This document shows positions 43,507 through 63,771 of a stretch of DNA of 64,000 nucleotides, one piece after another. A program made the position numbers and the translations under genes. This stretch comes from Sulfurospirillum sp. Lineage in GTDB: Bacteria; Campylobacterota; Campylobacteria; Campylobacterales; Sulfurospirillaceae. The notes beneath the pieces are model-generated. The model did not search any database, was not told the DNA's origin, and saw only the letters and a program-made list of their open reading frames with translations. The first letter of the stretch is position 1. Every line of letters begins with the position of its first letter. The stretch covers positions 124,001 to 188,000 of the forward strand of contig JADGDR010000003.1 of the NCBI GenBank assembly GCA_016744795.1. Direction: 5' to 3'.

Positions 43507-44133
43507 TTAATGAATCCATTTTTTTGCATCTTCATAGGTATCAAAATAGTTCATATTATTTGGTGTTAATTTATTTGCTATTGATGATGAAAGCTTACCT
43601 AGTTTTTTTGTTCCAACCACTGCAATTTTGTCGATAAGTTTAATATTTTTAAGATAAAAAACTAAATCTTCCCACATTGCTAACAAGCTAACACCATTCA
43701 TCTCTCTTATATCTACTAACGTATCTATAGACGATACCTTATGTTCACGAACAAGTGCTTCTAATTTTTCTTCAAAACTCTTTATATCTTCAATTGTCAG
43801 TTTTCCAGTTACATTTAACTCAGTATAAATTTTTGGAATACTTATTGAAGACTCTTTTTTTTCAATCTTTTTCGTAACTTCTTCAACAACCTCTTTTTTA
43901 TCAGGTTGATAAAGCATATGATGCCAAAAAGAAAATCCTATAAGTGCAACACCTGAACCAATATGAAGGTTTTTCATAAAATCATTTTTCATATAAAAAG
44001 AGGTTGCAGTGACAATACCAAGTGAAGCCGTCATTCCTATCTTTGCTATCTCTTTTTTAGTATCTAAATCAAGATTTAAGATTTTTCCTTTTTTTTCTGT
44101 CAAATTTTCTTTTTGCATTTTTACTCGTTTCAT
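43507..44133 (-). CDS. Membrane-anchored SpoIIAA-like (STAS-fold) protein
   Basis: The 208 residues begin with a basic segment and two short hydrophobic helices (IAKIGMTASLGIVTATSFYM, LHIGSGVALIGFSFWHHMLY); the HIGSG...FWHH pattern resembles heme-binding DUF4405-type helices. The C-terminal ~105 residues are a SpoIIAA-like domain of PF11964 type: LTIEDIKSFEEKLEALVREH, LVDIREMNGVS, IDKIAVVGTKKLGK and YFDTYEDAKKWI. Such domains bind lipids or act as regulatory modules. It is the last gene of the ferrosome-like locus and its start lies inside the small upstream ORF. Confidence 0.7.
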   Translation of the reverse strand: MKRVKMQKENLTEKKGKILNLDLDTKKEIAKIGMTASLGIVTATSFYMKNDFMKNLHIGSGVALIGFSFWHHMLYQPDKKEVVEEVTKKIEKKESSISIPKIYTELNVTGKLTIEDIKSFEEKLEALVREHKVSSIDTLVDIREMNGVSLLAMWEDLVFYLKNIKLIDKIAVVGTKKLGKLSSSIANKLTPNNMNYFDTYEDAKKWIH

Positions 44134-44194
44134 ATGTTAAAGCGGCTGTTATTACTGCTGCAATACCACTCGCTACTGGAAAAAAAATTGCCAT
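44069..44194 (-). CDS. Tiny single-helix membrane protein (41 residues)
   Basis: ATG 44194 has AAAGGG five bases before. The peptide starts MAIFFPVASGIAAVITAALT, a single glycine/alanine-rich transmembrane helix, followed by a very basic tail (KNAKRKFDRKKRKNLKS). It overlaps the SpoIIAA-like gene start by 65 bases in another frame. It resembles in design the other mini membrane proteins of this locus (one small-residue helix, Lys-rich tail). No family is recognised; coding is supported by ribosome site and composition only. Confidence 0.5.
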   Translation of the reverse strand: MAIFFPVASGIAAVITAALTYETSKNAKRKFDRKKRKNLKS

Positions 44195-44245
44195 GTTTAC
44201 CCTTTATGATATTAAATCTCATAATCATATCGAAATAAACTAAAT

Positions 44246-46348
44246 CTACGCTTTCTTTTCTTCCAATCTAATACCTTTAAGAGAATTTAAAAGCAAACCA
44301 ATCGTTGTTCCATTATGCAAAATAGCCGTATTAATAGGGCTCAATATGCCAGCCGTTGCTCCAATCAAAATCATACTATTAATTCCAACAGTTGCATTAA
44401 AATTTGTATTTATAAGTTTCATTGTTTTATTTGCTAACTCTTTTACTTCGCTTACTGCTTCAATATCATCTTTTAACAAACCAACATCAGCTGTTGCTTT
44501 GGCTATGTCAGCTCCTCTTTGCATACTTATCCCTACATCTGCACTCATCAGGGCTGGTGCATCGTTAATTCCATCTCCAACAAACACAACCTTTTTACCC
44601 TCAGCTTTTAACTGTTTAATAATTCCTGCTTTCCCTGTTGGCAACATATTGGCATAGACCTTATCTACCCCAATCTCTTTTGCCAATAAATCGGCTTTTG
44701 ATTGAACATCACCAGTAAGCATAACTATCTCTTTAACACCTAATTCTTTTAGCTTTTTTATCATTTTTATAGAATTTTCACGAACTTGATCATACATCCC
44801 AATAGTGCCTAAAAGTTTACCATCATAGGCTATGTAAAGTAATGTTTTCCCGTCTTTTAAGCAAGCATCTATTTTTGTCTTATGTGCTCTAAACGATACT
44901 TTTTCATCATCTTCTAAAAAATGTCTACTACCTATTAAAACTTCTTTATCATTCACTATAGTCTTTACACCATGAGCTATAATAAACTCAACTTCCTCAT
45001 GATGCATATGAACAAAACCTCTATCTTTTGCAGCCTTTACTATAGCTTCTGCTACAGGATGAAAATAGTGCTCTTCAGCACTTGCTGTAAGATTCAAGAT
45101 ATCATCTTCACTCCACTGTTTACTAAATGAAGTTATATTTACCACTTCAAGTTCTCCACGAGTTAAAGTTCCAGTTTTGTCAAAAACAAAAGTATCTGCG
45201 AGAGCTAAAGCTTCTATAGATTTTGCACCCTTTATCAATATTCCATCACGTCCAGCTTGTGAAATTGAAGATTTAAAGGCTACAGGAGTTGCAAGTTTTA
45301 AAGCACAAGAGTAATCAGCTTGCAAAACTGAAGCTACACTTTCAAAATTTCTATTAATAACATAAGCTACACCGGCAAGTCCCAAAGTAACAGGGACTAA
45401 ACTATCGGCTAGTTTAGTTGCTTTCAGACCTACTGCTGATTTTTCATCTAAGGAGCTTTTTATATACTCTTTTATTCTAGAAGTTGCAGTATCTTCGCCA
45501 ACTTGTTCTGCCCAGATTTTTATCTTACCCTCTTCAATAACAGTCCCCGATATGACTTTATCACCTCGGCTTCTTTTTACTGGTTCTGCTTCACCTGTCA
45601 TAGAAACTTGGTTAACTGAAGCATCTCCATGAATTATATGTCCATCTACTGCTATAGTATCTCCTGCTCCAACTATAACAATATCTCCTATTTTTAGAGT
45701 ATTGGTTTTAACAAGCTTTTGCACTTTTTTAGAATCTTCTTCAACCTCTATCCAAGCATTTTCTACATTTGGTTTTGCTAACTCTTTTATAAGATCATCG
45801 CTTTTATGCACTGTTGTCTCTTCTATGTACTCTCCAAGTTCAAGCATTGCATTTGTACTGTTCGCAGCAAGATAATCTTTTCTAGCAAGTGAAACACCAA
45901 CAGCTGTTGCTTCTAAAACTCTTGAAGTCAAACCTTCACTAAAAAGTTCCTTTGTTCCACTCATTAATAAAGGAGCTGTAGCATAAGCAGTAAGTATAAA
46001 TTTTGTTCTATCATCTTGTAAAAAAGGTTCAACACTTAAAGAAGAAGTTGCGCGTATAAGTCCTGAAAGACTTGGTTTTTCATCTGAAATAAAACATTTA
46101 TCATTAGCATTGCATGTAGATTTAAAATCTAAAATATTTATCTTTAATATCTCATTTTCAAGAAACTCAACATTAATATTTTCAGCATTAAAAACAATAG
46201 ACCTTGCTTTTAAATTTACTTTAACAGATGCTATACCCTCTATATTTAAAAGATACTTCTCTAATTTTTCTTTGTTTGTATCTTTTTCTAAAAGTTTATA
46301 ACGAAATCTAACTCTTTTTTTAGTTATATGTAAAGATTTTACTAACAT
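44246..46348 (-). CDS. P1B-type ATPase with SCA ion-channel motif (FezB-like)
   Basis: The 700 residues start with a basic strand KKRVRFRYKLL, part of a degenerate HMA fold without CxxC (SVKVNLKARSIVFNAENINV). The P-type core is complete: actuator MTGEAEPVKR near 248, channel helix LQADYSCALKLATPVAF near 345 with SCA in place of CPC, phosphorylation site FDKTGTLTRG near 390, the HP locus AEEHYFHPVAEAI and hinge VGDGINDAPALMSADVG near 590. Arg-rich N-terminus plus an SCA-type channel is what I know from FezB, the P1B-6 ATPase that loads ferrosomes with iron. Neighbours (HMA protein, ferritin-like, mini membrane proteins) support this; the metal is not proven. Confidence 0.8.
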   Translation of the reverse strand: MLVKSLHITKKRVRFRYKLLEKDTNKEKLEKYLLNIEGIASVKVNLKARSIVFNAENINVEFLENEILKINILDFKSTCNANDKCFISDEKPSLSGLIRATSSLSVEPFLQDDRTKFILTAYATAPLLMSGTKELFSEGLTSRVLEATAVGVSLARKDYLAANSTNAMLELGEYIEETTVHKSDDLIKELAKPNVENAWIEVEEDSKKVQKLVKTNTLKIGDIVIVGAGDTIAVDGHIIHGDASVNQVSMTGEAEPVKRSRGDKVISGTVIEEGKIKIWAEQVGEDTATSRIKEYIKSSLDEKSAVGLKATKLADSLVPVTLGLAGVAYVINRNFESVASVLQADYSCALKLATPVAFKSSISQAGRDGILIKGAKSIEALALADTFVFDKTGTLTRGELEVVNITSFSKQWSEDDILNLTASAEEHYFHPVAEAIVKAAKDRGFVHMHHEEVEFIIAHGVKTIVNDKEVLIGSRHFLEDDEKVSFRAHKTKIDACLKDGKTLLYIAYDGKLLGTIGMYDQVRENSIKMIKKLKELGVKEIVMLTGDVQSKADLLAKEIGVDKVYANMLPTGKAGIIKQLKAEGKKVVFVGDGINDAPALMSADVGISMQRGADIAKATADVGLLKDDIEAVSEVKELANKTMKLINTNFNATVGINSMILIGATAGILSPINTAILHNGTTIGLLLNSLKGIRLEEKKA

Positions 46349-46357
46349 ATCAATACT

Positions 46358-46636
46358 CTAAGCTTTCTTCGCTTCTAACTCTGCTTTTGCGTCTTCCATT
46401 CTCTCTTTCATCTCTTCTATCCCTGATTGGAATACTTCTGCACCTTTTGCAACAGTTTTAAAAATAGCTTTTTGAGCTGATTCATTTGTTAAAAGGTAGG
46501 TAGCAACAGCTCCAATCAATGCACCTTTTATAAAATCATTTGTATTGATACCAGATAATACATTGTCTGTATTTATATTCGATACACTTTCAGCAATATT
46601 TGAAGTTATATCTTTACTTATATATGGATTTTCCAA
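46358..46636 (-). CDS. YtxH-like glycine-zipper membrane protein (92 residues)
   Basis: The start is TTG 46636 with AGGAG six bases before, directly after the stop of the MamC-like gene; the longer frame would read through that gene. One transmembrane helix FIKGALIGAVATYLLTN is followed by an amphipathic, charged helix ending EEMKERMEDAKAELEAKKA. The small-residue helix with a long charged tail is YtxH-like. Comparable helices occur in several other proteins of the locus, suggesting a membrane-shaping or coating set. Function is unknown. Confidence 0.7.
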   Translation of the reverse strand: MENPYISKDITSNIAESVSNINTDNVLSGINTNDFIKGALIGAVATYLLTNESAQKAIFKTVAKGAEVFQSGIEEMKERMEDAKAELEAKKA

Positions 46637-46637
46637 T

Positions 46638-46997
46638 TTATTCTCCTGCTTCTTCAGTTTTTTCTTCAACTTCTTCACTTTTTTCTTCTATCTCTTCTGT
46701 AACGTTTAGTTTTTGTGCAATCTTCTCAACTGCATAAACTCCACCAAAACCTAATGAAATAGCAGCCATCATTCCCAAATAATTCCCTTTTCCAAGATAA
46801 TTAGCAGCCGCTATTGCTGAACCAGTTGCAACTCCACCTTGAACAGTAAGTTTGATGCTATTTTTTATAGCTTCATCTTTGCTTATTTCATCTTTTGTAT
46901 AGTTGTTATAATTAACACTACTTGCAACTACTGCTGAAGCTACTGCTCCACTTACAACATGACCTGTAACATTTCTTGGATCACCAGTATTTATCAT
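46638..46997 (-). CDS. MamC-like two-helix membrane protein (119 residues)
   Basis: The protein has a Gly/Ala-rich helix (HVVSGAVASAVVASSV), a polar charged loop (YTKDEISKDEAIKNSIK), then two more Gly/Ala-rich segments (VQGGVATGSAIAAANYLG, MMAAISLGFGGVYAVEKIAQ) and an acidic tail (EEIEEKSEEVEEKTEEAGE). The order helix, charged loop with EA(I)xxxxK, VxxGxAT helix, GxxxAxxLGxG helix closely recalls magnetosome protein MamC/Mms13, whose loop touches the mineral, as I remember that sequence. Start ATG overlaps the upstream stop by four bases with GAGGTA before it. Homology needs a profile search. Confidence 0.65.
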   Translation of the reverse strand: MINTGDPRNVTGHVVSGAVASAVVASSVNYNNYTKDEISKDEAIKNSIKLTVQGGVATGSAIAAANYLGKGNYLGMMAAISLGFGGVYAVEKIAQKLNVTEEIEEKSEEVEEKTEEAGE

Positions 46998-47218
46998 TTT
47001 GCTACCTCTTTATCTTTTGAATTTATACAGTCTAATTTCTCTTTAACATTTTCTTTTGACTCTTGTGCAAACTCTTTAGTCTTGTCAAAACCTGTTTTAG
47101 CCGCATCTTTTACTTTTGAAGCACATGATGTTATCTTCTGTTTTATCTCTTTTTTGTTATTAAATGCAACTACTGCTAAACTTCCAACCGCGATTCCTAC
47201 TAGTAATGGTAATGCCAT
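46994..47218 (-). CDS. Small YtxH-like membrane protein (74 residues)
   Basis: MALPLLVGIAVGSLAVVAF forms one glycine-containing transmembrane helix right at the N-terminus, followed by a long basic/amphipathic helix (KKEIKQKITSCASKVKDAAK, KTKEFAQESKENVKEKL). AGGAG stands seven bases before the ATG. The stop overlaps the MamC-like start. Its first half resembles the 27-residue peptide encoded at 47446-47529, from which it is separated by the tandem repeat. Confidence 0.7.
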   Translation of the reverse strand: MALPLLVGIAVGSLAVVAFNNKKEIKQKITSCASKVKDAAKTGFDKTKEFAQESKENVKEKLDCINSKDKEVAK

Positions 47219-47242
47219 AATATACTCCTATTTCTTTTTATT

Positions 47243-47431
47243 TTATTTCTCGCATGACTTGAACAAGTCCAAGTCAGCTCAATCACTAAAGCTTTGCCTT
47301 TGGCAAGAAAACTTATTTCTCGCATGACTTGAACAAGTCCAAGTCAGCTCAATCACTAAAGCTTTGCCTTTGGCAAGAAAACTTATTTCTCGCATGACTT
47401 GAACAAGTCCAAGTCAGCTCAATCACTAAAA
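47243..47431. repeat. 70-bp tandem direct repeat, about 2.7 copies
   Basis: The unit beginning TTATTTCTCGCATGACTTG recurs with an exact 70-base period (for example CGCATGACTT at 47251, 47321 and 47391). The first two copies appear identical; the third stops after CAATCACTAAA. Each unit contains two small perfect inverted repeats, GACTTG-AA-CAAGTC and TTGCC-TTT-GGCAA. It lies in the only sizeable gap (47219-47445) of the ferrosome-like operon. Repeats are too few and too regular in spacer content for CRISPR. Confidence 0.95.
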
Positions 47432-47445
47432 CTTTATCAAAAGCC

Positions 47446-47529
47446 TTATTTCTTTTTTTTATTCTTTTTTAGTAAATATACTGCAACTCCACCTAACATT
47501 GCACCTATTACAAATGGAACTAATGGCAT
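47446..47529 (-). CDS. 27-residue membrane mini-protein
   Basis: ATG 47529 follows the DUF2202 stop by two bases and has GGGAG upstream. The peptide is one hydrophobic helix, MPLVPFVIGAMLGGVAVYLL, and a tail of lysines with one Asn, ending in TAA. It has the same plan as the start of the 47218 protein (MALPLLVGIAVGSLAVV). It is too short for most gene finders. Coding is supported by the ribosome site, coupling and helix pattern. Confidence 0.65.
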   Translation of the reverse strand: MPLVPFVIGAMLGGVAVYLLKKNKKKK

Positions 47530-47531
47530 AA

Positions 47532-48224
47532 CTAATCTCCCTTCCCATCTTTATTGAGCATACCAGTAGCTAGTGATGCCCCTACTCCACCTAAAAGCAT
47601 TCCACTTATAAAAGAGATATTTGAACTACCAAGTAATTTCGTTATCTCAGCGGGATCTGCTTCTCCTGATGCAATTCTAGTTGCAAGGTCTTTAAATTCA
47701 TTCATTTTTGCCATCATATCTTCTTGGTTTTGAGCATTGTCTGTATTAACAAATTCACCTTGTGAACTATAATGAGATGAAACACAACTTCTAAAAGCAG
47801 GAAGATGATTGTTAAATGAAGCTGCTTGAAGTCTAAAAAACATATCTTGAATATCTGTTTGCTTAGTATAAGAAAGCAAATTATCATACATTTTTATGTT
47901 ATCTATTTCAGCAGCAACTCCAACTTCACAACACTCTATTAGAGTATCTGGTATCTCTATTTTATCTTCCCAATCATTGATTGGAGGTTCTACATCATAC
48001 TTTTGCAAAAAAGACAATGTAGCATTAATATGATTTTGTTCAGCTACTATGATATTTGCAAAAGGATTTACATTTCCAAATTTTTCAATAACCTTCTTAT
48101 AAACTTCATATGCATGATACTCATCATAAGCCGCTATTCTTAGAGTTTGGTTTAGCACTGGTTCATCAAAACTAAGATCAACTCTTTGTGATATTAAAAC
48201 TCTTTCATCAAAATTAACTTCCAT
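47532..48224 (-). CDS. Ferritin-like DUF2202 protein with C-terminal glycine-rich membrane segment
   Basis: The 230 residues begin with a DUF2202-type four-helix ferritin-like domain: IAAYDEYHAYEVYKKVIEKF, FANIIVAEQNHINATLSFL, CCEVGVAAEIDNIKMYDNLL and LQAASFNNHLPAFRSC, carrying Glu and ExxH residues positioned for a di-iron site. A Met/Glu-rich linker follows and then a terminal hydrophobic segment FISGMLLGGVGASLATGML with glycine spacing. A membrane-tethered ferritin-like domain next to metal-pumping ATPases suggests iron oxidation or nucleation at a membrane. AAGGAGG precedes the ATG. Confidence 0.8.
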   Translation of the reverse strand: MEVNFDERVLISQRVDLSFDEPVLNQTLRIAAYDEYHAYEVYKKVIEKFGNVNPFANIIVAEQNHINATLSFLQKYDVEPPINDWEDKIEIPDTLIECCEVGVAAEIDNIKMYDNLLSYTKQTDIQDMFFRLQAASFNNHLPAFRSCVSSHYSSQGEFVNTDNAQNQEDMMAKMNEFKDLATRIASGEADPAEITKLLGSSNISFISGMLLGGVGASLATGMLNKDGKGD

Positions 48225-48542
48225 CTATACAACCTCCTTATATAAGGTATTTATCTTTTGCGTTATCTCTTGTTTATTATTGCCTAATATTAAATCTTCC
48301 CAAAGTTCAAATGGAAAAATTTTATTATCATACAAAATTGTAATAGAGCCCATAAGTTTATTTATTTTTAATTTTTCTATGCCATTTATTTTTTTTGGTA
48401 AATTTTCTATGTCTTGCAATGAAACATTATTCGCTTCATCTTTTATCTTTGGACTGACTCTTACTCTGAGTCTTCCACTTGTATGGTGGATTATACTCAT
48501 ATAAGAGGTTATCCTAACTATATCTTCACCTGTTATCTTCAA
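48225..48542 (-). CDS. HMA-like protein with GRLRVR motif (FezC-like)
   Basis: The 105 residues start at TTG 48542 with AAGGAG before it. The N-terminus contains IIHHTSGRLRVRVSPKI, and the rest has the beta-alpha-beta spacing of a heavy-metal-associated fold (INGIEKLKINKLMGSITILYD) without the metal-binding CxxC. A GRxRVR element at the start of an HMA-like domain is the feature I associate with FezC and the N-terminus of FezB in ferrosome loci. The gene is one base from the DUF2202 gene, so they are coupled. Confidence 0.72.
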   Translation of the reverse strand: MKITGEDIVRITSYMSIIHHTSGRLRVRVSPKIKDEANNVSLQDIENLPKKINGIEKLKINKLMGSITILYDNKIFPFELWEDLILGNNKQEITQKINTLYKEVV

Positions 48543-48625
48543 AATGACTCCTTTACTATTACTACTTTAACAAATTGCTAATTAAACTGACCTTAAAGTT
48601 TACTGAAAGTCATTATCAATTCATC

Positions 48626-50782
48626 TCAATTTTGATACCATGTTAATCTTGAAGAATTTGCCATAATTCCAATTGTATGTCCCAAATGAATAGCACCAGC
48701 AGATACAGGAGAGAGTAACCCTACACTAGCCAAAGCTACACCTCCTAGATTTGTACTAGTTCCTATCCAATAGTTTTGATTTACTACTTTTAAACTTTTT
48801 TTACTTATATCATATAGATTTACAACATCATCAGGATGAGAGTGAGTAATAGCAACATTTGATATCTCAATAGCAGCTTCACTTCCACCACTTGCAAAAG
48901 AGACGGCAACATCTGCTCTACTCATTGCAATCGTGTCATTAACACCATCGCCTATCATGACTACGTTTTTATATTTTTTCTTCAATTCATCTATAATATC
49001 GGCTTTACCTTCTGGCATCAGGTTTGAATAAACTTCATCAAAACCATATTCTTTTGCAAAACTATTTGCAACTTTTTCATCATCGCCAGTTAATAATACT
49101 AAATGTTTTACACCTCTTTGTCTTAAATCATCAAGCATCTTTATGGTGCCAAGTCTTACTTCATGCTTAAATGTAATAAAACCTAAAATTTCGCTTCCAA
49201 AAGTAACATAAGCAACAGTTTCGCCTTTACTTAAAAATTTGTTTGCTCTATCTTCAAAATCTTTTACTGAAATTCTATTGTTATTTAAAAACTTTTTATT
49301 TCCAACTAAAATTACTTCTTTGTCTTTTGAAGCCATTACACCAAGACCAGGAACTATCTCACTAGAATACCCTTCATCAAAAAGTGCACCTATTTGTTTA
49401 GCATGTTCAATTATAGCTGTTGCAATTGGGTGAGTGTTTCTATACTCTGCTAAAGAAGCAAACTCAAAAAGTGTTTTTTCATCTACATTTAAACCCAGGA
49501 CTACCTCTTGGACTATAGGTTTTCCAGTTGTAAGTGTTCCAGTTTTATCAAAACAAAATGCCTCACTTTGACTTACTTTTTCTAAGTATTCTCCACCTTT
49601 TATTAAAATTCCATCTTTTGTAGCTCTTGAAATTCCTGCACTTATAGCTGTACTAGCAGCAAGAACAGTCGCACAAGGACAAGACATAACTATCATTACA
49701 GAAAATGCTCTTAGATATGAACCTGTTATAAAAAATGTTCCAGCAGTAAGTGCTGTTCCCAATTTTAAAAGTTTTGAAGCTAATCTATCGGCTTCAAGTT
49801 CACTTGGAGATTTTTCTAGCAATGAAAGCTCTACTTTTGATATAACTCTTGAAATATAAGTATCTGCTCCTGTTGCACTAACTTCAATGTAAATTCTTCC
49901 TTTTTCTACATATGTATTTGCAAAAACTTCTGCACCACTTTGTTTAAATGCTGGTTCACTTCTTCCATTTATAAGTGCTTCATCTATCTCAGCACTTCCA
50001 CTTTTTATAAAACCATCTACAGGAATCTTTTCTCCACTTCTGGAAACAACTATATCTCCCTCTTTAACCTCATCTAAATCAACTTCTAATTCAATATCAT
50101 CTACTAAAATATATGCTTTTTTTATATCTAATTCTATAAGCTTATGTATCTCTTTTTTTGATTTCTCAGCAATATACTCTTCTAAAAGCATTCCACCTCT
50201 TAAAATATATATAATTTCAAATGCAGCAGTTGCTTCACCAAAAAATATAGCTAAAAGTAGAGTCCCACTCATAAAAGTTTGTAAGGTAAACTTACTTTGT
50301 TTTAAACTTTCAATTGACTCTTTAAAAAGAGGAAGTGCTGCTACTATTGAGACAATAGCAACCAAAGAAAAAGGAGAAGCAACTATAGTGATACCTAAAA
50401 AAGTCTCTGCAACAAATATATAAATACTATAACAGCTCAAAAGTCCAAAGGTTATAAGCTTTGCATTCCAAGAAACTCCTTCATTTTTACCAATAGAACA
50501 ACTACTACAACTCGTACAACTATAACAATGCCCATCTTCGTTGGTATAAGAACTAACATAAGGTAAACTAAGTGGAAATAACAAATTTAAATCTTCTAAT
50601 ATTTTTTCCAATGAAGTTAATGCTTCATCAAAAACAAATACTATAGATTTGCATTTTTTATTTACTCTAAAACTAAAAAACTCTTTATCAAAATGCGAAA
50701 GTATTTTTTCATTATTTAATGAATCAATAAAAATTTGTGATTTTAATCTAACTCTATTTCCCGCTTGTGATTTTACTACCAT
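48626..50782 (-). CDS. P1B-type ATPase with CPC channel motif and a Cys cluster
   Basis: The start is ATG 50782 (AAGGAG seven bases before), eight codons inside the longest frame. The 718 residues start with AGNRVRLKSQIFI, an Arg-containing degenerate HMA domain, then four cysteines spaced C-x2-C-x2-C-x2-C near residues 86-95. The pump core is complete: GRSEPAFKQ, channel helix VMSCPCATVLAASTAI, FDKTGTLTTG, the HP locus EYRNTHPIATAI and IGDGVNDTIAMSRADV. CPC is followed by ATVLAAS instead of the usual ALGLATP. It overlaps the Fur-like gene by 29 bases. Transported metal is uncertain (Fe, Cu or Zn class). Confidence 0.82.
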   Translation of the reverse strand: MVVKSQAGNRVRLKSQIFIDSLNNEKILSHFDKEFFSFRVNKKCKSIVFVFDEALTSLEKILEDLNLLFPLSLPYVSSYTNEDGHCYSCTSCSSCSIGKNEGVSWNAKLITFGLLSCYSIYIFVAETFLGITIVASPFSLVAIVSIVAALPLFKESIESLKQSKFTLQTFMSGTLLLAIFFGEATAAFEIIYILRGGMLLEEYIAEKSKKEIHKLIELDIKKAYILVDDIELEVDLDEVKEGDIVVSRSGEKIPVDGFIKSGSAEIDEALINGRSEPAFKQSGAEVFANTYVEKGRIYIEVSATGADTYISRVISKVELSLLEKSPSELEADRLASKLLKLGTALTAGTFFITGSYLRAFSVMIVMSCPCATVLAASTAISAGISRATKDGILIKGGEYLEKVSQSEAFCFDKTGTLTTGKPIVQEVVLGLNVDEKTLFEFASLAEYRNTHPIATAIIEHAKQIGALFDEGYSSEIVPGLGVMASKDKEVILVGNKKFLNNNRISVKDFEDRANKFLSKGETVAYVTFGSEILGFITFKHEVRLGTIKMLDDLRQRGVKHLVLLTGDDEKVANSFAKEYGFDEVYSNLMPEGKADIIDELKKKYKNVVMIGDGVNDTIAMSRADVAVSFASGGSEAAIEISNVAITHSHPDDVVNLYDISKKSLKVVNQNYWIGTSTNLGGVALASVGLLSPVSAGAIHLGHTIGIMANSSRLTWYQN

Positions 50783-51209
50783 TATTACACTCCTTGCAAT
50801 AGCCATATAAATTAAGGCTATACTCTAATACTAAAAAATTTCTCTTATTTGACATGTTTTTGACTAAATCATCAACACAAGCAGTATTAACTTCTATAAT
50901 TCTTTTACATGTAAGACAAACAAGAGTATTCTGTTTTGAAGTTCTCTTTAACTTATATATTTTTTTCTCAGAAAACTCATCTTTTTCAGAGTATACCACA
51001 TCTATTTTTTCTAAAGTAGCTAACTGCTTATATATAGTTGTCAACGATATATTAATATTATATTTTTCTAAAATTAAACTTTTTATACCTAATGCATCTA
51101 ATGGCTCTTTAAAAAGAACCTTTAATATATGTTCTCTTTTTATAGAATGTCTATACCCTAACTCATTTAAAAATTTATTTATTTGTAGGATTGACCAATG
51201 TTTAACCAA
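50754..51209 (-). CDS. Second Fur-family regulator
   Basis: The 151 residues have a winged helix (RHSIKREHILKVLFKEPLDA, recognition helix ISLTTIYKQLATLEKIDVV) and a C-terminal dimer domain with CxxC pairs LVCLTCKRIIEV and YGYCKECNN. The usual HHDH metal cluster before the first CxxC is replaced by KLKRTSKQNTLVC, so metal sensing differs from the canonical Fur at 21269. Start is TTG 51209, eight bases inside the EAL gene end. Position ahead of the ATPase suggests it regulates the ferrosome-like operon. Confidence 0.85.
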   Translation of the reverse strand: MVKHWSILQINKFLNELGYRHSIKREHILKVLFKEPLDALGIKSLILEKYNINISLTTIYKQLATLEKIDVVYSEKDEFSEKKIYKLKRTSKQNTLVCLTCKRIIEVNTACVDDLVKNMSNKRNFLVLEYSLNLYGYCKECNNGSKITSGK

Positions 51210-51936
51210 AATGCATCTTTTTTATAAATTGTGATCTAAAAAGAAATCCTTGAACATAATCAATATTTAGCCTCTTTGCTAACTCAAAATCCTTTCTACT
51301 CTCTACGCCTTCAAGCACAATTTCTTTACCTAATTCATGAGAACATTTTACAAGTCCCTCTACAACATGAATAAAACTTTTATTGCTATTCATCTCTTTT
51401 AAAGTATCTTTATCTAGTTTTAGATAGTTACATTTTTTTAAAAGTTTAAGTGAAAGCATACTATTTTCTTTGAAAAAATCATCTACAGCAAAATCGTACT
51501 GAAGATTTTCAAATATATTAAGTAATTTTGATGTATTTACTGATTCATGAGAGTTTTCTACTAGTTCAATAACAAAGTTCTTTTGCATTGAAAAAAAGTT
51601 AAAGACTTCGTTTATTCTCTCTTTTTCTAAAAGTATATGTGGATCAAAATTTACAAAAAGCTTTTTGTTTTTAGGGCGATTTTCAAATTGGAACTTTTTA
51701 AGAATTTGTTCAGCCTCAAAAAATAGCTCAGTAAAATCATGACATATTCCAAAAAAAACCTCTGGCGAAATTGCTTTAGTAACATATTGAAATCTGGACA
51801 ACGCCTCGTAAGCAACTATTTTCTCATTTTTTGTTGAAACAAAAGGCTGATACTCTACTCCATAACTCTTATCTTTTAGTATGGTTTTAACCATCTCTAT
51901 AGAGTTCATTGTTTCAAAAAATGTATTTCTACTCAA
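51202..51936 (-). CDS. EAL-domain c-di-GMP phosphodiesterase
   Basis: The 244 residues are a single EAL domain: VAYEALSRFQ near 27, KKLFVNFDPHI, FVIELVENSHE, the acidic loop FAVDDFFKEN, LKLDKDTLKEM, IVLEGVESRKDF and VQGFLFRSQ. The catalytic Glu, Asn, Asp-Asp, Lys, Glu and Gln residues all seem present, so it should hydrolyse c-di-GMP. No sensory domain is attached. The start is TTG 51936. It overlaps the Fur-family gene by eight bases and heads the ferrosome-like transcription unit. Confidence 0.88.
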   Translation of the reverse strand: MSRNTFFETMNSIEMVKTILKDKSYGVEYQPFVSTKNEKIVAYEALSRFQYVTKAISPEVFFGICHDFTELFFEAEQILKKFQFENRPKNKKLFVNFDPHILLEKERINEVFNFFSMQKNFVIELVENSHESVNTSKLLNIFENLQYDFAVDDFFKENSMLSLKLLKKCNYLKLDKDTLKEMNSNKSFIHVVEGLVKCSHELGKEIVLEGVESRKDFELAKRLNIDYVQGFLFRSQFIKKMHFG

Positions 51937-51971: not shown

Positions 51972-51996
51972 TATATTAAATTTATAATTTTATTTA

Positions 51997-52017
51997 TTAT
52001 CAATTCTATATTGATAA
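51997..52017 (-). promoter_or_regulatory. Operator-like palindrome TTATCAAT-5-ATTGATAA
   Basis: Perfect 8-base arms lie in the 141-bp AT-rich gap between nnrS and the EAL gene. The motif resembles a Fur box with inverted half-sites, and TTGATA could also be a -35 element for the minus-strand operon. The Fur-family protein encoded two genes downstream is a natural candidate binder. Confidence 0.55.
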
Positions 52018-52077
52018 TTAATTTCAATATAATATCTATATTTTACTTATTCTTTATTTAAATAACAAAGGATATAT

Positions 52078-55109: not shown

Positions 55110-55412
55110 CTACTCAACAATATCTTTACCACTAATATGAACTCTATGACCTTCTCCAGCATCGAAGATAGCACTATAGTCTCCGTTAGGCTTTTTAAAA
55201 GTAAAATCACTATCTTCACTCATCTGTCCGCTAATTAAAACTTTACCATTTTGTTCGACTCTAAACTTAACCCCACTAGAACTACTACCATCGCTAAAAC
55301 CACCTTCACAAGTTATGCTTCCATCTCCATTATCAAAGCAACTCATAATCGCAGTATGCGCAAAAAGTGAACTTGTAAGAAGCACTGTTGTAACTAAAAT
55401 TTTATTTAACAT
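55110..55412 (-). CDS. Small periplasmic protein of the feo operon (100 residues)
   Basis: A signal peptide ends at LFAHT, giving a mature N-terminal His like DUF4198/NikK-type proteins. The body is a small beta sandwich (IMSCFDNGDGSITCEGGFSD, GVKFRVEQNGKVLISGQ, YSAIFDAGEGHRVHISGKDI) with two Cys that could form a disulfide. The GEGHRVHISGKDI tail is typical of small proteins next to metal transporters. It lies 41 bases after feoB. A metal-binding or delivery role in the periplasm is inferred. Confidence 0.65.
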   Translation of the reverse strand: MLNKILVTTVLLTSSLFAHTAIMSCFDNGDGSITCEGGFSDGSSSSGVKFRVEQNGKVLISGQMSEDSDFTFKKPNGDYSAIFDAGEGHRVHISGKDIVE

Positions 55413-55453: not shown

Positions 55454-57919
55454 TCAAGGTTTTTTAAGAAACCCACCTTTCCAATTCATTAGTTTTTGTG
55501 GGAATAGTCCCAATAACAGTGCTGCACTAACTATAGAAATATAATAATATTTCATTGCCTCAAGACCGTTCAAATGATAAATATTTCCGAAAGTAAAAAC
55601 AAAAGAAGAGATAAAAACTCCTAAAAATACAGGAAAAAATATAGCAAACATCATCCATTTATAACTATTTGTTTGCATTTTTACTACAATCATAGTTGCA
55701 ATACAAGGAGGTGTTAAAAGCATAAAAATTATGATAGCTACTGCATGAAGTGAAGTATATCCGCTATTTTGTGCCATTGCCTCTTCTGCTCTTAGCGAAT
55801 CAGCTTTATTATTTTCATATAGAGTTCCTAGAGTCGCTACAGCACTCTCACGAGCCGCAAAAGAGCTTAAAAAAGCTACATTTATTTTCCAATCAAATCC
55901 TGCATATTTAGTCAAAGGCTCTATTGCTCGTCCGCTCATGCCCAAAAGTGAGTTTTCTACTTTTTCATTTTTGATATTTCTTAAAATTCTTTTTCTTGTT
56001 TTTGATAATTTTCTTAAAACTTTATTTACAATTCTCGCATCTTTATCTTTTTTTGGTTTTATAAATTTAAAATAATTTTGATTTTTTTGTTTATATTTTT
56101 CATCTATACTTTTTGCTCCTTCTCGTGAACTTGTAGTCATTCTTTTAGCTCTATATCCGTCATAATAATTTAAAAGAGCAGATACTTTTTCTTTAGTATT
56201 TACTTCAATATAATATTTTGACTTTTTCACTTTTTTCTCAAATACTTTCAATGATTTTTCAAGCTGAACTTCATATTTAATTTGAGATTCATCACTAATT
56301 CCAGGAAATTGAAGCATTGCAAAAAGAATGATAGCAACTGCTAAAACAATTGTCATAACCTTATAAATATAAGTCCAAACTCGTTGAAATGCTCTTATAA
56401 TTACACCTTTAAATGTAGGTAAATGATAGGGAGGTAATTCCATAACAAAAGGTGCAGTTTCTCTATTTTTTAGAACTGTACTTGTTAATAATTTTGCCAT
56501 TATTAAAGCTATAAAAATGGTAGAAGTTGAAATGAAAAACATCATTAAAGCCATGCTTTCTTTAAAAAATGCTCCTAAAAGTAGAGTATAAAAAGGCACT
56601 TTTGCTAAACAGTTCATATATGGAACTGTTAAAATTGTAGCCATTCTAGCTCGCTCATCAGCAATACCCTTAGTTGCCATGACTCCAGGAACTGCGCAAC
56701 CTCCAACCATAGCTCCACCTAAAACTAAAGGAAGAGTTGATTGTCCATGTAAACCAAATTTTCTAAAAATTCTATCAAGTATAAAAGCCATTCTAGGCAT
56801 ATATCCCACATCTTCTAAAATAGCGATTAAAGCAAACAAAATGAAAAATATAGGAATATAATTCAACAAAGCATTAGCACTATTAATCATCCAAATAACG
56901 AAACCTGTAATCATAGGAATATCTATGAAATTTGTAACTGGTAAAACATCAATAGCAAAATTTTTAATTCCTGCTAGTAATGGCCAAGTATATTTTGTTA
57001 ATTCATATCCATAAACTATAGCTAATTGATAAATCAAGAACATAACTAAAAACAAAAATGGCATAGCAAACCATCTGTTGAGTATAAACTTATCTACAAT
57101 ATCAGTAACAGTGGATTTACCTAATTTTGTTTCATTTATAGTCTTATGGTAAATAACATCTGCACAATCGTACCTCAAGGTTGCTAAAAAAGCACAAATA
57201 TCTTTATCGTAAGTATCATGAAAAATATTTTCTTGAATCTTAGCTTTTTCTTTTATATTGTTAGAATCTTTATCTAATTTTTCAATAATACTAGAATCTC
57301 CTTCTAGTACTTTAATAGCTAGCCATCTATGATTTAGTGAAATATCACTTGCTGATATAATGTCTTCTATGATTTTAATACAAGGCTCTAACTCTTCATA
57401 ATTTATTTTAAATTTTTTATAATCATCTTTATTTTTAGAAGTACTAATGATGGCTTCCACTATTTCTTTACCACCAACACCTTTTGCTCCGCTTGCACTA
57501 ACAACTTTACAGCCTAACATTTGAGATATTTTTTGAATATCTATCTCAACCCCCCTTCTTTGTGCAACGTCCATCATATTTAACACAACTACAACAGGTA
57601 CACCTATTTCTAAAAGCTGAAAAGTTAAATACAAATTTCTTTTTATATTTGAAGCATCTACAATATTTACAATAACATCAGGTTTTTCATCTACAATAAA
57701 ATCTTTTGCTACCCTCTCTTCAAGTGAAAAAGAGCTAAAAGAGTAAGTACCAGGCAAATCAACCATCTCAATTGTCTGCTTTTCATACTCAAACCGACCT
57801 ACTTTTTTATCGACTGTAACACCAGGATAATTAGCAATATGCTGGTTTATACCACTCACCATATTAAAAATAGTAGATTTACCACAATTAGGTTGACCTG
57901 CCAAAGCTACTTTTATCAT
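55454..57919 (-). CDS. feoB: Ferrous iron transporter FeoB
   Basis: The 821 residues have an N-terminal G domain with G1 GQPNCGKSTIFN, G2 NYPGVTVDKK, G3 DLPGTYSFSSFS and G4 NMMD. A helical guanine-dissociation-inhibitor domain follows, then the two Gate regions (PLVLGGAMVGGCAVPGVMAT near 395, FAARESAVATLGTLY near 705). It is longer than the usual 700-770 because ~130 residues separate FPGISDESQIKYE and NSLLGMSGRAIEPL, far more than normal; this insert is rich in Lys and Arg. feoA precedes it with a four-base overlap. Confidence 0.95.
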   Translation of the reverse strand: MIKVALAGQPNCGKSTIFNMVSGINQHIANYPGVTVDKKVGRFEYEKQTIEMVDLPGTYSFSSFSLEERVAKDFIVDEKPDVIVNIVDASNIKRNLYLTFQLLEIGVPVVVVLNMMDVAQRRGVEIDIQKISQMLGCKVVSASGAKGVGGKEIVEAIISTSKNKDDYKKFKINYEELEPCIKIIEDIISASDISLNHRWLAIKVLEGDSSIIEKLDKDSNNIKEKAKIQENIFHDTYDKDICAFLATLRYDCADVIYHKTINETKLGKSTVTDIVDKFILNRWFAMPFLFLVMFLIYQLAIVYGYELTKYTWPLLAGIKNFAIDVLPVTNFIDIPMITGFVIWMINSANALLNYIPIFFILFALIAILEDVGYMPRMAFILDRIFRKFGLHGQSTLPLVLGGAMVGGCAVPGVMATKGIADERARMATILTVPYMNCLAKVPFYTLLLGAFFKESMALMMFFISTSTIFIALIMAKLLTSTVLKNRETAPFVMELPPYHLPTFKGVIIRAFQRVWTYIYKVMTIVLAVAIILFAMLQFPGISDESQIKYEVQLEKSLKVFEKKVKKSKYYIEVNTKEKVSALLNYYDGYRAKRMTTSSREGAKSIDEKYKQKNQNYFKFIKPKKDKDARIVNKVLRKLSKTRKRILRNIKNEKVENSLLGMSGRAIEPLTKYAGFDWKINVAFLSSFAARESAVATLGTLYENNKADSLRAEEAMAQNSGYTSLHAVAIIIFMLLTPPCIATMIVVKMQTNSYKWMMFAIFFPVFLGVFISSFVFTFGNIYHLNGLEAMKYYYISIVSAALLLGLFPQKLMNWKGGFLKKP

Positions 57920-58140
57920 AATATGGCTACTTCCAATGTCTTTGCTTCACTTTTTCTAAGACTAATCAAATATCTTTGTATTCTTAATTCCATAGGGTCA
58001 TACAAAGGTGCTTCTCTAACTACTTCAATAACAGAGCCATTAACAAAACCCATATCTAAAAGTTTATGCATTAGTTTACCTTTTACATGCATCTTTTTAA
58101 TCTCGCACCTTTGTCCTTTTTTAAGCATATCTAAGGTCAT
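57916..58140 (-). CDS. feoA: FeoA domain protein
   Basis: FeoA is an SH3-like small cytosolic partner of FeoB. The 74 residues contain KGQRCEIKKMHVKGKLMHKLLDMGFVNGSVIEVVREAPLYD in several recognisable parts: LLDMGFVNGS and the C-terminal LRIQRYLISLRKSEAKTLEV. It overlaps feoB by four bases and shares one base with the Spy-like gene stop upstream. Confidence 0.92.
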   Translation of the reverse strand: MTLDMLKKGQRCEIKKMHVKGKLMHKLLDMGFVNGSVIEVVREAPLYDPMELRIQRYLISLRKSEAKTLEVAIL

Positions 58141-61831: not shown

Positions 61832-61850
61832 GATAACAATAATCATTGGA
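61832..61850 (+). promoter_or_regulatory. Fur-like box before cftr1
   Basis: GATAACAATAATCATTGGA matches the Fur consensus at about 14 of 19 positions; a TATAAT lies just before it. The ribosome site GGAG overlaps its right end. Confidence 0.55.
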
Positions 61851-61857
61851 GAAATAT

Positions 61858-63771
61858 ATGTATAAAGTTGGTTTCATTTTTAGATTTTTAGTGTTTGGTT
61901 GCTTGCTCTTTGTAATAAGTGCAAATGCAGCTAATTATAACAATTATGTTGAGGACATCAAGGGACGCTTTGACAAAGCCTATCACCTATATAATTCTGG
62001 TAATGATAAAGAAGCAAAAGCAGTTCTTTCGTCTGCATATTTTGAAGTTTTTGAGAATCTAGAAGGACCAATTAGGATTAATATATCTGCAAAAAAATCC
62101 TACCTTATGGAATCTCAATTTACGAATCTTAGAAAAATGGTTAAAAAGAAAGTGACACCTGAAGAGTTAAAAGAAGCTATGGATAATCTACAAGCTGAAC
62201 TACATGAAGTATTACCACAAATCAATGGTGGTACTGAACTTATTGCTGAGGGAATTGACGGTGATGAGCCAATATTAAAAACTCCAACCCAAGAAAAAAA
62301 GATAAATCTTACTTGGCAAAAAGCTATAGAGTACATTCAGAATTCACTAGATAAATCACTTGTAGCTTACCTACCAGAGAACTCTAAAAAAGCAAGAAGT
62401 TTTGTACAAAATGCACAATTTGAAGGATACAGAAACAGTGGTATAGAAACAGCTATAAGAAAAAATGTTTCTAGTTATGCAGAACAAGAAATGCAGAAAA
62501 AATTTACTAGTTTGATACGTTTCATGCATACTAAACCTACAAAAGAGTTGGTTAAAGTAGAGATAGATTCTCTTATTTCATCTTTATCAAAACTCGCACG
62601 TGGATTGCCTTTAGTTGATGTAGCAAGAGTTGTTGAAACAAAAGTAAAAGTAAAAAAAGATTTTTCTAAAGTCCTAGATAATATAAATAAAGAGTTTGAT
62701 AAAGCATTTTACGTATATGAAAAAGGTAATAAAAAAGAGGCTATTACTATAGTTCAAAATACATATTTTGACATATTTGAAGCAAGTGGCATGGAAATTG
62801 CACTTGGCGCTAAAAATGTAACTTTAAAAGTTGAGATAGAATCTTATTTTAGCAAAATTATTGCTCTGATAAAAAATGGTAGCAGTATAGAAGATATAAA
62901 AAATGAATTCTCTAAAATGCAAACACTACTAAATGAAGGTTTAAACATCTTAAATGGTGAAAATAAAAACTTTCTTACTCTATTTATATACTCTTTAACG
63001 ATTATACTAAGAGAGGGTTTTGAAGCTCTTCTTATAGTAACAGCTATCATTGCTTACTTAGTAAAAAGTGGTAATGGTCATAGACTAAATATAGTATATA
63101 GTTCACTTTTCACAGCAATAGGACTTAGTTTTGTTACTGCTTTTGTTATGAATATAATATTTGGTTCAGCCGCAGCTGAAAATAGAGAGATATTAGAAGG
63201 CAGTGTTATGCTTGTTGCTTCCGCCCTATTGCTCTATGTAAGTTATTGGCTACTTTCAAATGCAAGTGCACAAAAGTGGACAAACTATATAAAACAGCAG
63301 GTAAAAGAGTCTCTAGATGACAACTCAGTTAAAGCTCTATGGTTTACTGTGTTTTTAGCAGTTTACCGTGAAGGTGCAGAGACTGTGCTTTTTTATCAGG
63401 CGTTAATTGTAGATGCTAGTACACCAACAGATTACATGGCTCTCTCAAGTGGCTTTGCCGTTGGTCTTTTAGCTCTTATAATTTTATATTTTATTATGAA
63501 ATTTACAGCTATAAAACTTCCTATAAAACCTTTCTTCATATTTACTGGAATATTTATATATATCATGGCTTTTATGTTTATAGGTCGAGCTGTTATGGAA
63601 TTTGTAGAAGGTAAGATAATAGAACCAACTTTAATTACAGGAATACCAACTATCTCCTTTATAGGCATATACCCTTACATGGAAAGCTTAATCCCTCAAG
63701 CTATAGTTTTAGCACTTGGTGTATTTGGACTAATTATATTAAGAAAAAATAAACTAAAACAAAAGGAGTAG
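61858..63771 (+). CDS. ftr1: Iron permease cFtr1 with three periplasmic modules
   Basis: The start is ATG 61858 (GGAG six bases before). The 637 residues have a signal peptide ending near ISANAA. A periplasmic region follows with three related helical modules (SAYFEVFENLEGPI, AQFEGYRNSGIETAI, NTYFDIFEASGMEI). The FTR1/EfeU permease is C-terminal with the two iron-binding REXXE motifs, LREGFEALLIV near 388 and YREGAETVLFY near 505, and seven helices. With P19 encoded 99 bases downstream it forms the cFtr1-P19 iron uptake system known from Campylobacter. Confidence 0.93.
   Translation: MYKVGFIFRFLVFGCLLFVISANAANYNNYVEDIKGRFDKAYHLYNSGNDKEAKAVLSSAYFEVFENLEGPIRINISAKKSYLMESQFTNLRKMVKKKVTPEELKEAMDNLQAELHEVLPQINGGTELIAEGIDGDEPILKTPTQEKKINLTWQKAIEYIQNSLDKSLVAYLPENSKKARSFVQNAQFEGYRNSGIETAIRKNVSSYAEQEMQKKFTSLIRFMHTKPTKELVKVEIDSLISSLSKLARGLPLVDVARVVETKVKVKKDFSKVLDNINKEFDKAFYVYEKGNKKEAITIVQNTYFDIFEASGMEIALGAKNVTLKVEIESYFSKIIALIKNGSSIEDIKNEFSKMQTLLNEGLNILNGENKNFLTLFIYSLTIILREGFEALLIVTAIIAYLVKSGNGHRLNIVYSSLFTAIGLSFVTAFVMNIIFGSAAAENREILEGSVMLVASALLLYVSYWLLSNASAQKWTNYIKQQVKESLDDNSVKALWFTVFLAVYREGAETVLFYQALIVDASTPTDYMALSSGFAVGLLALIILYFIMKFTAIKLPIKPFFIFTGIFIYIMAFMFIGRAVMEFVEGKIIEPTLITGIPTISFIGIYPYMESLIPQAIVLALGVFGLIILRKNKLKQKE

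Follow-up and report, generated by a model that had tools for sequence, protein, structure and literature searches.

An enlarged fez-type gene cluster with a probable role in iron storage in a Campylobacterota genome

Ferrosomes are tiny membrane-bound iron stores that have been shown in few species. An enlarged fez cluster is in itself already known, since Rhodopseudomonas palustris CGA009 has six fez genes, RPA2333-2338 (PMC12016538). The fez genes of Clostridioides difficile are repressed by Fur (PMC12574912), and FezC has been described as a DUF4405-like heme b cytochrome (PMC11334425). The three-gene fezABC locus used for comparison here comes from a genome (G581, locus L183) that is very probably that of Desulfovibrio magneticus RS-1, because it carries a pair of MamB/M-type CDF genes separated by 9 kb, which a near relative lacks, and a compact FezA-FezB-FezC locus; it is called the inferred RS-1 below. 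The locus described in this work is a run of minus-strand genes at positions 43507-51936 of the window, meaning the whole stretch of 64,000 nucleotides that was analysed. We read it as an enlarged fez-type cluster, with a probability of about 0.75 that its products form and load a membrane-bound compartment for iron storage. As far as could be checked, the new elements are a ferritin-like protein, a MamC relative, a FezC split over two genes and an ATPase that lacks the TGE motif.

Gene content, conservation and iron neighbourhood of the run

The original prediction had listed two P1B-ATPases, a free HMA-like protein, a ferritin-like protein, a MamC-like protein, several small membrane proteins and a Fur-family regulator, and the ORF list together with Pfam and NCBIfam matches places all of them in this single run. 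The genes follow in order of transcription, with a 70-bp tandem array falling between the 27-aa ORF and the 74-aa YtxH-like protein; the last three lines lie upstream of the run.

51202..51936, minus strand: protein with an EAL domain (c-di-GMP phosphodiesterase family), heading the run; PF00563, 109.8 bits
50754..51209, minus strand: Fur-family regulator; PF01475, 55.8 bits
48626..50806, minus strand: ATP1, a CPC-type P1B-ATPase of a separate clade; motifs, alignment and tree
48225..48542, minus strand: free HMA_2 protein (GRLRVR), equivalent of the FezC N-terminal half; PF19991, 33.4 bits
47532..48224, minus strand: ferritin-like protein (DUF2202) with a predicted four-helix bundle, ending in a glycine-zipper tail; PF09968, 32 bits, AlphaFold2 and Foldseek
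47446..47529, minus strand: hydrophobic, glycine-rich 27-aa ORF, MPLVPFVIGAMLGGVAVYLLKKNKKKK, too short to be included in the ORF list; sequence, and a homolog in L020 (E 8e-12)
46994..47218, minus strand: small membrane protein of 74 aa, YtxH-like and the strongest candidate for FezA; weak YtxH match
46638..46997, minus strand: 119-aa MamC-like glycine-rich membrane protein; NCBIfam MamC, E 5e-6
46358..46636, minus strand: YtxH-like small protein with a TTG start at 46636; ORF list, Pfam and homologs
44246..46348, minus strand: ATP2, a FezB-like P1B-6 ATPase; Pfam, motifs and tree
44069..44194, minus strand: hydrophobic 41-aa ORF, weakly conserved, overlapping the next gene; homolog in L027 (E 2e-3)
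43507..44133, minus strand: FezC-like two-helix domain (DUF4405-like) fused to a SpoIIAA-like domain at its C-terminus; invariant H57-X13-H71, profiles
51996..52018, no strand assigned: inverted repeat ATTATCAAT-N5-ATTGATAAT, upstream of the run, candidate operator; sequence
55454-58140: FeoB/FeoA-like ORFs, further upstream; named from the sequence and the original prediction
61846-63771: long FTR1-like ORF, further upstream; named from the sequence and the original prediction

ATP1 has 726 and ATP2 700 amino acids, and both carry RxR motifs in degenerate HMA-type N-termini. The window, positions 124001-188000 of contig C15 in genome G000, has a G+C content of 29%, and a PHROGs search gave no matches. 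The 70-bp unit is present in 2.8 tandem copies at 47243-47435, and the rest of the genome holds only one diverged partial copy of it. The EAL gene stands at the head of the run both in the window and in its nearest relative, L020, which hints at a c-di-GMP link.

An ortholog of ATP2 was found in 14 of 60 relatives, and a FezB-like gene in 135 of the 397 genomes sampled across Campylobacterota, spread over 28 of 68 genera. Most of 54 other Campylobacterota loci share the gene order of the run. Around the pump in these loci we counted HMA_2 in 53, MamC-like genes in 51, DUF2202 in 46, FezC-like genes in 41, Fur-family genes in 20 and ATP1 in 12, all of them lower bounds because some loci are clipped by contig ends. 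Among the 60 relatives, the MamC-like gene accompanied 13 of the 14 genomes with the pump and none of the 46 without it. The shared order in most of the 54 loci and the co-occurrence of the MamC-like gene with the pump in the 60 genomes show that the run is more than a chance assembly. In 63 loci built mostly around other P1B-ATPases (L080-L142), ferritin-like, MamC-like and FezC-like profiles gave no match at E 0.05. The set from HMA_2 to the FezC-like gene also occurs, with the same neighbours, on a plasmid of Arcobacter sp. DSM 115972 (L061).

The predicted regulator holds as a Fur-family gene that keeps its CxxC pairs, with the HHDH metal-sensing motif missing. The Fur-family protein of L020 likewise lacks HHDH, which most other relatives retain. 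Iron genes lie near both this run and several of its relatives: Feo lies inside the window, an iron ABC transporter beside the relative in Azospirillum, FeoA and siderophore genes beside that in Cereibacter, and FeoA/FeoB-like genes beside those in Pseudothauera and a gammaproteobacterium. A 100-aa protein encoded at 55110-55412 adjoins FeoB, and a 56% identical relative of it is found beside the fez-type cluster of L214.

The FezB-like pump and the two FezC-like genes

Both ATPases had been put forward for comparison with P1B-6/FezB, and the motifs and the tree separate them. ATP2 (44246-46348) has an N-terminal HMA_2/Arg motif, RVRFR, an intact TGE, SCA in TM4 and HN in TM6, the last being a P1B6 feature (PMC9374683). 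These motifs are nearly uniform among its 53 Campylobacterota orthologs (SCA and TGE in 53 each, HN in 52, RxR in 51). In a tree of 72 rows, ATP2 falls inside a clade of 43 rows (SH-aLRT 97), nearly all SCA/HN, that also contains the FezB of the inferred RS-1. The two are just 34.5% identical and belong to different subclades of the P1B-6 clade. By its motifs and placement, ATP2 is classified as a P1B-6/FezB-like pump carrying the Arg motif of fez clusters. ATP1 (48626-50806), which has CPC and sits in a separate clade, is not FezB-like, and the reading of both ATPases as FezB is ruled out. The genome of the window probably belongs to the family of Sulfurospirillum, since the ATP2 of a named Sulfurospirillum MAG (L065) is 79.5% identical to that of L021, a member of the window's own family.

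The product of 48225-48542 had been put forward for comparison with FezC, and it corresponds to one half of that protein. The FezC of the inferred RS-1 locus is 146 aa long; it begins with an HMA_2-like part (EGRIRFRHP) and ends in a two-helix HX13H part, HLTFGFALAGFAAWH. The free HMA_2 protein of the window reaches 33.4 bits with PF19991 against a cut-off of 30, and a profile of its window-side relatives aligns with residues 3-61 of the inferred RS-1 FezC (hhalign probability 82, E 1e-5). The other, DUF4405-like heme half, by which published work defines FezC (PMC11334425), is encoded at 43507-44133: a profile of the two-helix proteins from the window side matches the inferred RS-1 FezC at E 9e-7 in hhalign, and both residues of the His pair (H57-X13-H71 in the window) are kept in 42 of 42 such proteins. 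Since profiles match both halves and the His pair is kept, the two parts of FezC are, as judged from sequence, present as separate genes; 48225-48542 alone as FezC is ruled out. Matches to DUF4405 were obtained for nine of 10 two-helix proteins and were weak (best E 0.0054), the helices are only mildly hydrophobic, and the structure model of the FezC-like protein is weak (mean pLDDT 64). By its profile match and His pair the protein is assigned to the DUF4405-like FezC type and may bind heme.

ATP1, the ferritin-like protein and the small membrane proteins

ATP1 shows CPC in TM4, no HN in TM6, an N-terminal RxR motif and a Cys-rich linker. Its DKTGT, TGD and GDGxND motifs are intact, and the TGE of the actuator domain is replaced by NGR. 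It belongs to a clade of 12 members from two phyla (SH-aLRT 100), among them Desulfovibrionaceae proteins encoded beside P1B-6 pumps. In the aligned TGE column all 12 members have xGR, versus xGE in 60 other sequences. Thirteen Campylobacterota ATP1 proteins were aligned separately, five of which also occur in the first alignment; NGR stands in 12 and NGY in one, so that the actuator Glu is missing in all 20 distinct sequences compared from the clade (19 xGR, one NGY). TGE-less genes of this clade are found in the window, in L186, L187, L188, L189, L190, L197 and L198, and among the Campylobacterota ATP1 genes.

In P-type ATPases the TGE Glu drives dephosphorylation, and because ATP1 lacks this residue, it more likely has a non-cycling, regulatory or structural role than that of a pump that turns over normally. 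That ATP1 is always found with FezB-like pumps does not count as independent evidence, since these pumps were the means by which the loci were retrieved. ATP1 might instead be a copper or zinc exporter of the ordinary kind whose place in the operon is a coincidence, an explanation that would suit the CPC in TM4, the Cys-rich N-terminal linker and the presence of ATP1 in just 12 of the 54 Campylobacterota loci. We consider this unlikely, given that ATP1 falls in a well-supported clade of its own that spans two phyla and that every member has lost a Glu kept by the 60 other compared sequences.

The DUF2202 protein scores 32 bits with PF09968 against a cut-off of 22. Its AlphaFold2 model has a pLDDT of about 90 across a four-helix bundle, Foldseek places the model with MJ0754 and bacterioferritins, and its tail (residues 205-223) is hydrophobic with a GxxxGxxxG pattern. 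By its Pfam match and predicted four-helix fold it is a ferritin-like protein. The putative diiron ligands E35, E62, H65, E106 and H140 are all kept in the window protein, and roughly one third of its relatives lack several of them (E62 kept in 28/43, H65 in 29/43, H140 in 30/43). A literature search on DUF2202 found no paper. In the window genome no ordinary ferritin or Dps was found, the sole PF00210 match being a rubrerythrin-like protein (G000:C28:12883-13254). A role of the fez-type locus as a ferritin replacement is ruled out, as 12 of the 14 pump-positive genomes among the 60 relatives have a strong PF00210 match.

The remaining small proteins of the run have 74, 119, about 92-106, 41 and 27 amino acids; for the YtxH-like protein at 46358-46636, a GTG further upstream would yield the 106-aa form. 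The 119-aa protein matches the NCBIfam MamC model (NF038051) at E 5e-6 with 26.7 bits, below the cut-off of 100, and nine of 11 of its relatives match as well. The best score, 57.2 bits, came from a Desulfovibrionaceae relative in the same kind of locus and is still under that cut-off. Judging by these profile matches, the protein is related to MamC and is not classed as MamC. The 74-aa protein shows weak similarity to the inferred RS-1 FezA, with 31% identity over 70 aa, about 4 standard deviations above shuffles.

In several of these small proteins a charged region comes after a hydrophobic one, which brings up a metal-efflux platform like the mycobacterial PacL1/CtpC system, where zipper proteins would cluster P1B-ATPases in the plasma membrane and excess metal would be exported with no organelle formed. 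Small membrane proteins of the PacL1 type act as scaffolds for P1B6-like ATPases, and genes for DUF6110 proteins typically accompany those for P1B6 transporters (PMC9374683). Among the Pfam matches listed for the small proteins scanned, however, there was no DUF1490 or DUF6110, the DLHDHDH motif was not found in the sequence, and the genes for ferritin-like, FezC-like and MamC-like proteins, like the proximity of Feo, suit iron storage better, so that we regard such a platform as quite unlikely.

Proposed working and comparison with known systems

In the iron-storage reading, ATP2, as the FezB of the system, would move ferrous iron out of the cytoplasm and into membrane vesicles. The work of FezC, which may comprise gating or metal delivery in the cytosol and electron transfer across the membrane via heme b, would be shared by the free HMA_2 protein and the two-helix HX13H protein. 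Packing or curving of the membrane could fall to the YtxH- and MamC-like small proteins, and the ferritin-like protein, held by its zipper tail, might oxidise or buffer iron at the vesicle membrane, with ATP1, lacking the actuator Glu, as a putative regulatory or structural partner. A P1B-6 pump, a ferritin-like protein and a Fur-family gene could also belong to an Fe(II) exporter with accessory proteins that detoxifies across the cell membrane and has no storage compartment, and the sequence by itself does not demonstrate vesicles. The conserved set of zipper and MamC-like genes and both FezC halves nevertheless bring the run nearer to organelle-forming clusters than to a simple exporter, and we judge this alternative very unlikely.

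The original prediction of a divergent, enlarged fez-type locus near Feo is thus upheld by the placement of ATP2 with P1B-6/FezB proteins, by the presence of both FezC domains and by the conserved synteny, and corrected in that only one ATPase is FezB-like and 48225-48542 is half of FezC. With the pump in about a third of the sampled Campylobacterota genomes, iron organelles would be common across this phylum, which includes many microaerobic and host-associated members. The ferritin-like, MamC-like and TGE-less ATPase genes that keep recurring offer concrete, testable candidate parts for the shaping and loading of ferrosomes, together with a lead on an ancestry common to ferrosomes and magnetosomes. 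We tentatively propose, as possible rather than probable, that the TGE-less P1B-ATPases in ferrosome loci are non-cycling partners of FezB and that the wider home of the MamC family is in ferrosome-type loci. If true, this would tie together ferrosomes and magnetosomes, two iron organelles.

Like the window, the inferred RS-1 fezABC has a P1B-6 pump with an Arg motif, a small YtxH-like protein, which is FezA in the inferred RS-1 and a candidate FezA in the window, and FezC parts of the HMA_2 and two-helix HX13H kinds. It has three genes only, and its FezC is fused, whereas that of the window is split and carries a SpoIIAA-like fusion; the window adds ATP1, the ferritin-like and MamC-like proteins and more small proteins. 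The C. difficile fez genes share a small membrane protein and a FezB-type pump with the window, but far fewer parts are reported. Three Desulfovibrionaceae loci (L186, L187 and L188) resemble the window in having a CPC ATPase with an xGR actuator, zipper and FezC-like genes and a P1B-6 pump, and L187 and L188 also have HMA_2 and MamC-like genes. These three differ from the window in their FeoA-like genes and in that no window-type DUF2202 gene was seen. Fur lies within the run in L187, and L186 and L187 have a third P1B-ATPase and a FeoA-like gene in the same run. The fez cluster of R. palustris CGA009 is enlarged, as is that of the window. A locus from the order of Rhodomicrobium (L214) comes near the window in make-up, with HMA_2, two MamC-like genes, YtxH/zipper proteins and a P1B-6 pump, although the profiles used show in it neither a ferritin-like gene nor ATP1 nor a FezC-like gene of the two-helix kind. 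The core of the window thus looks, at the level of sequence, like an enlarged cluster of the L214 type with additions.
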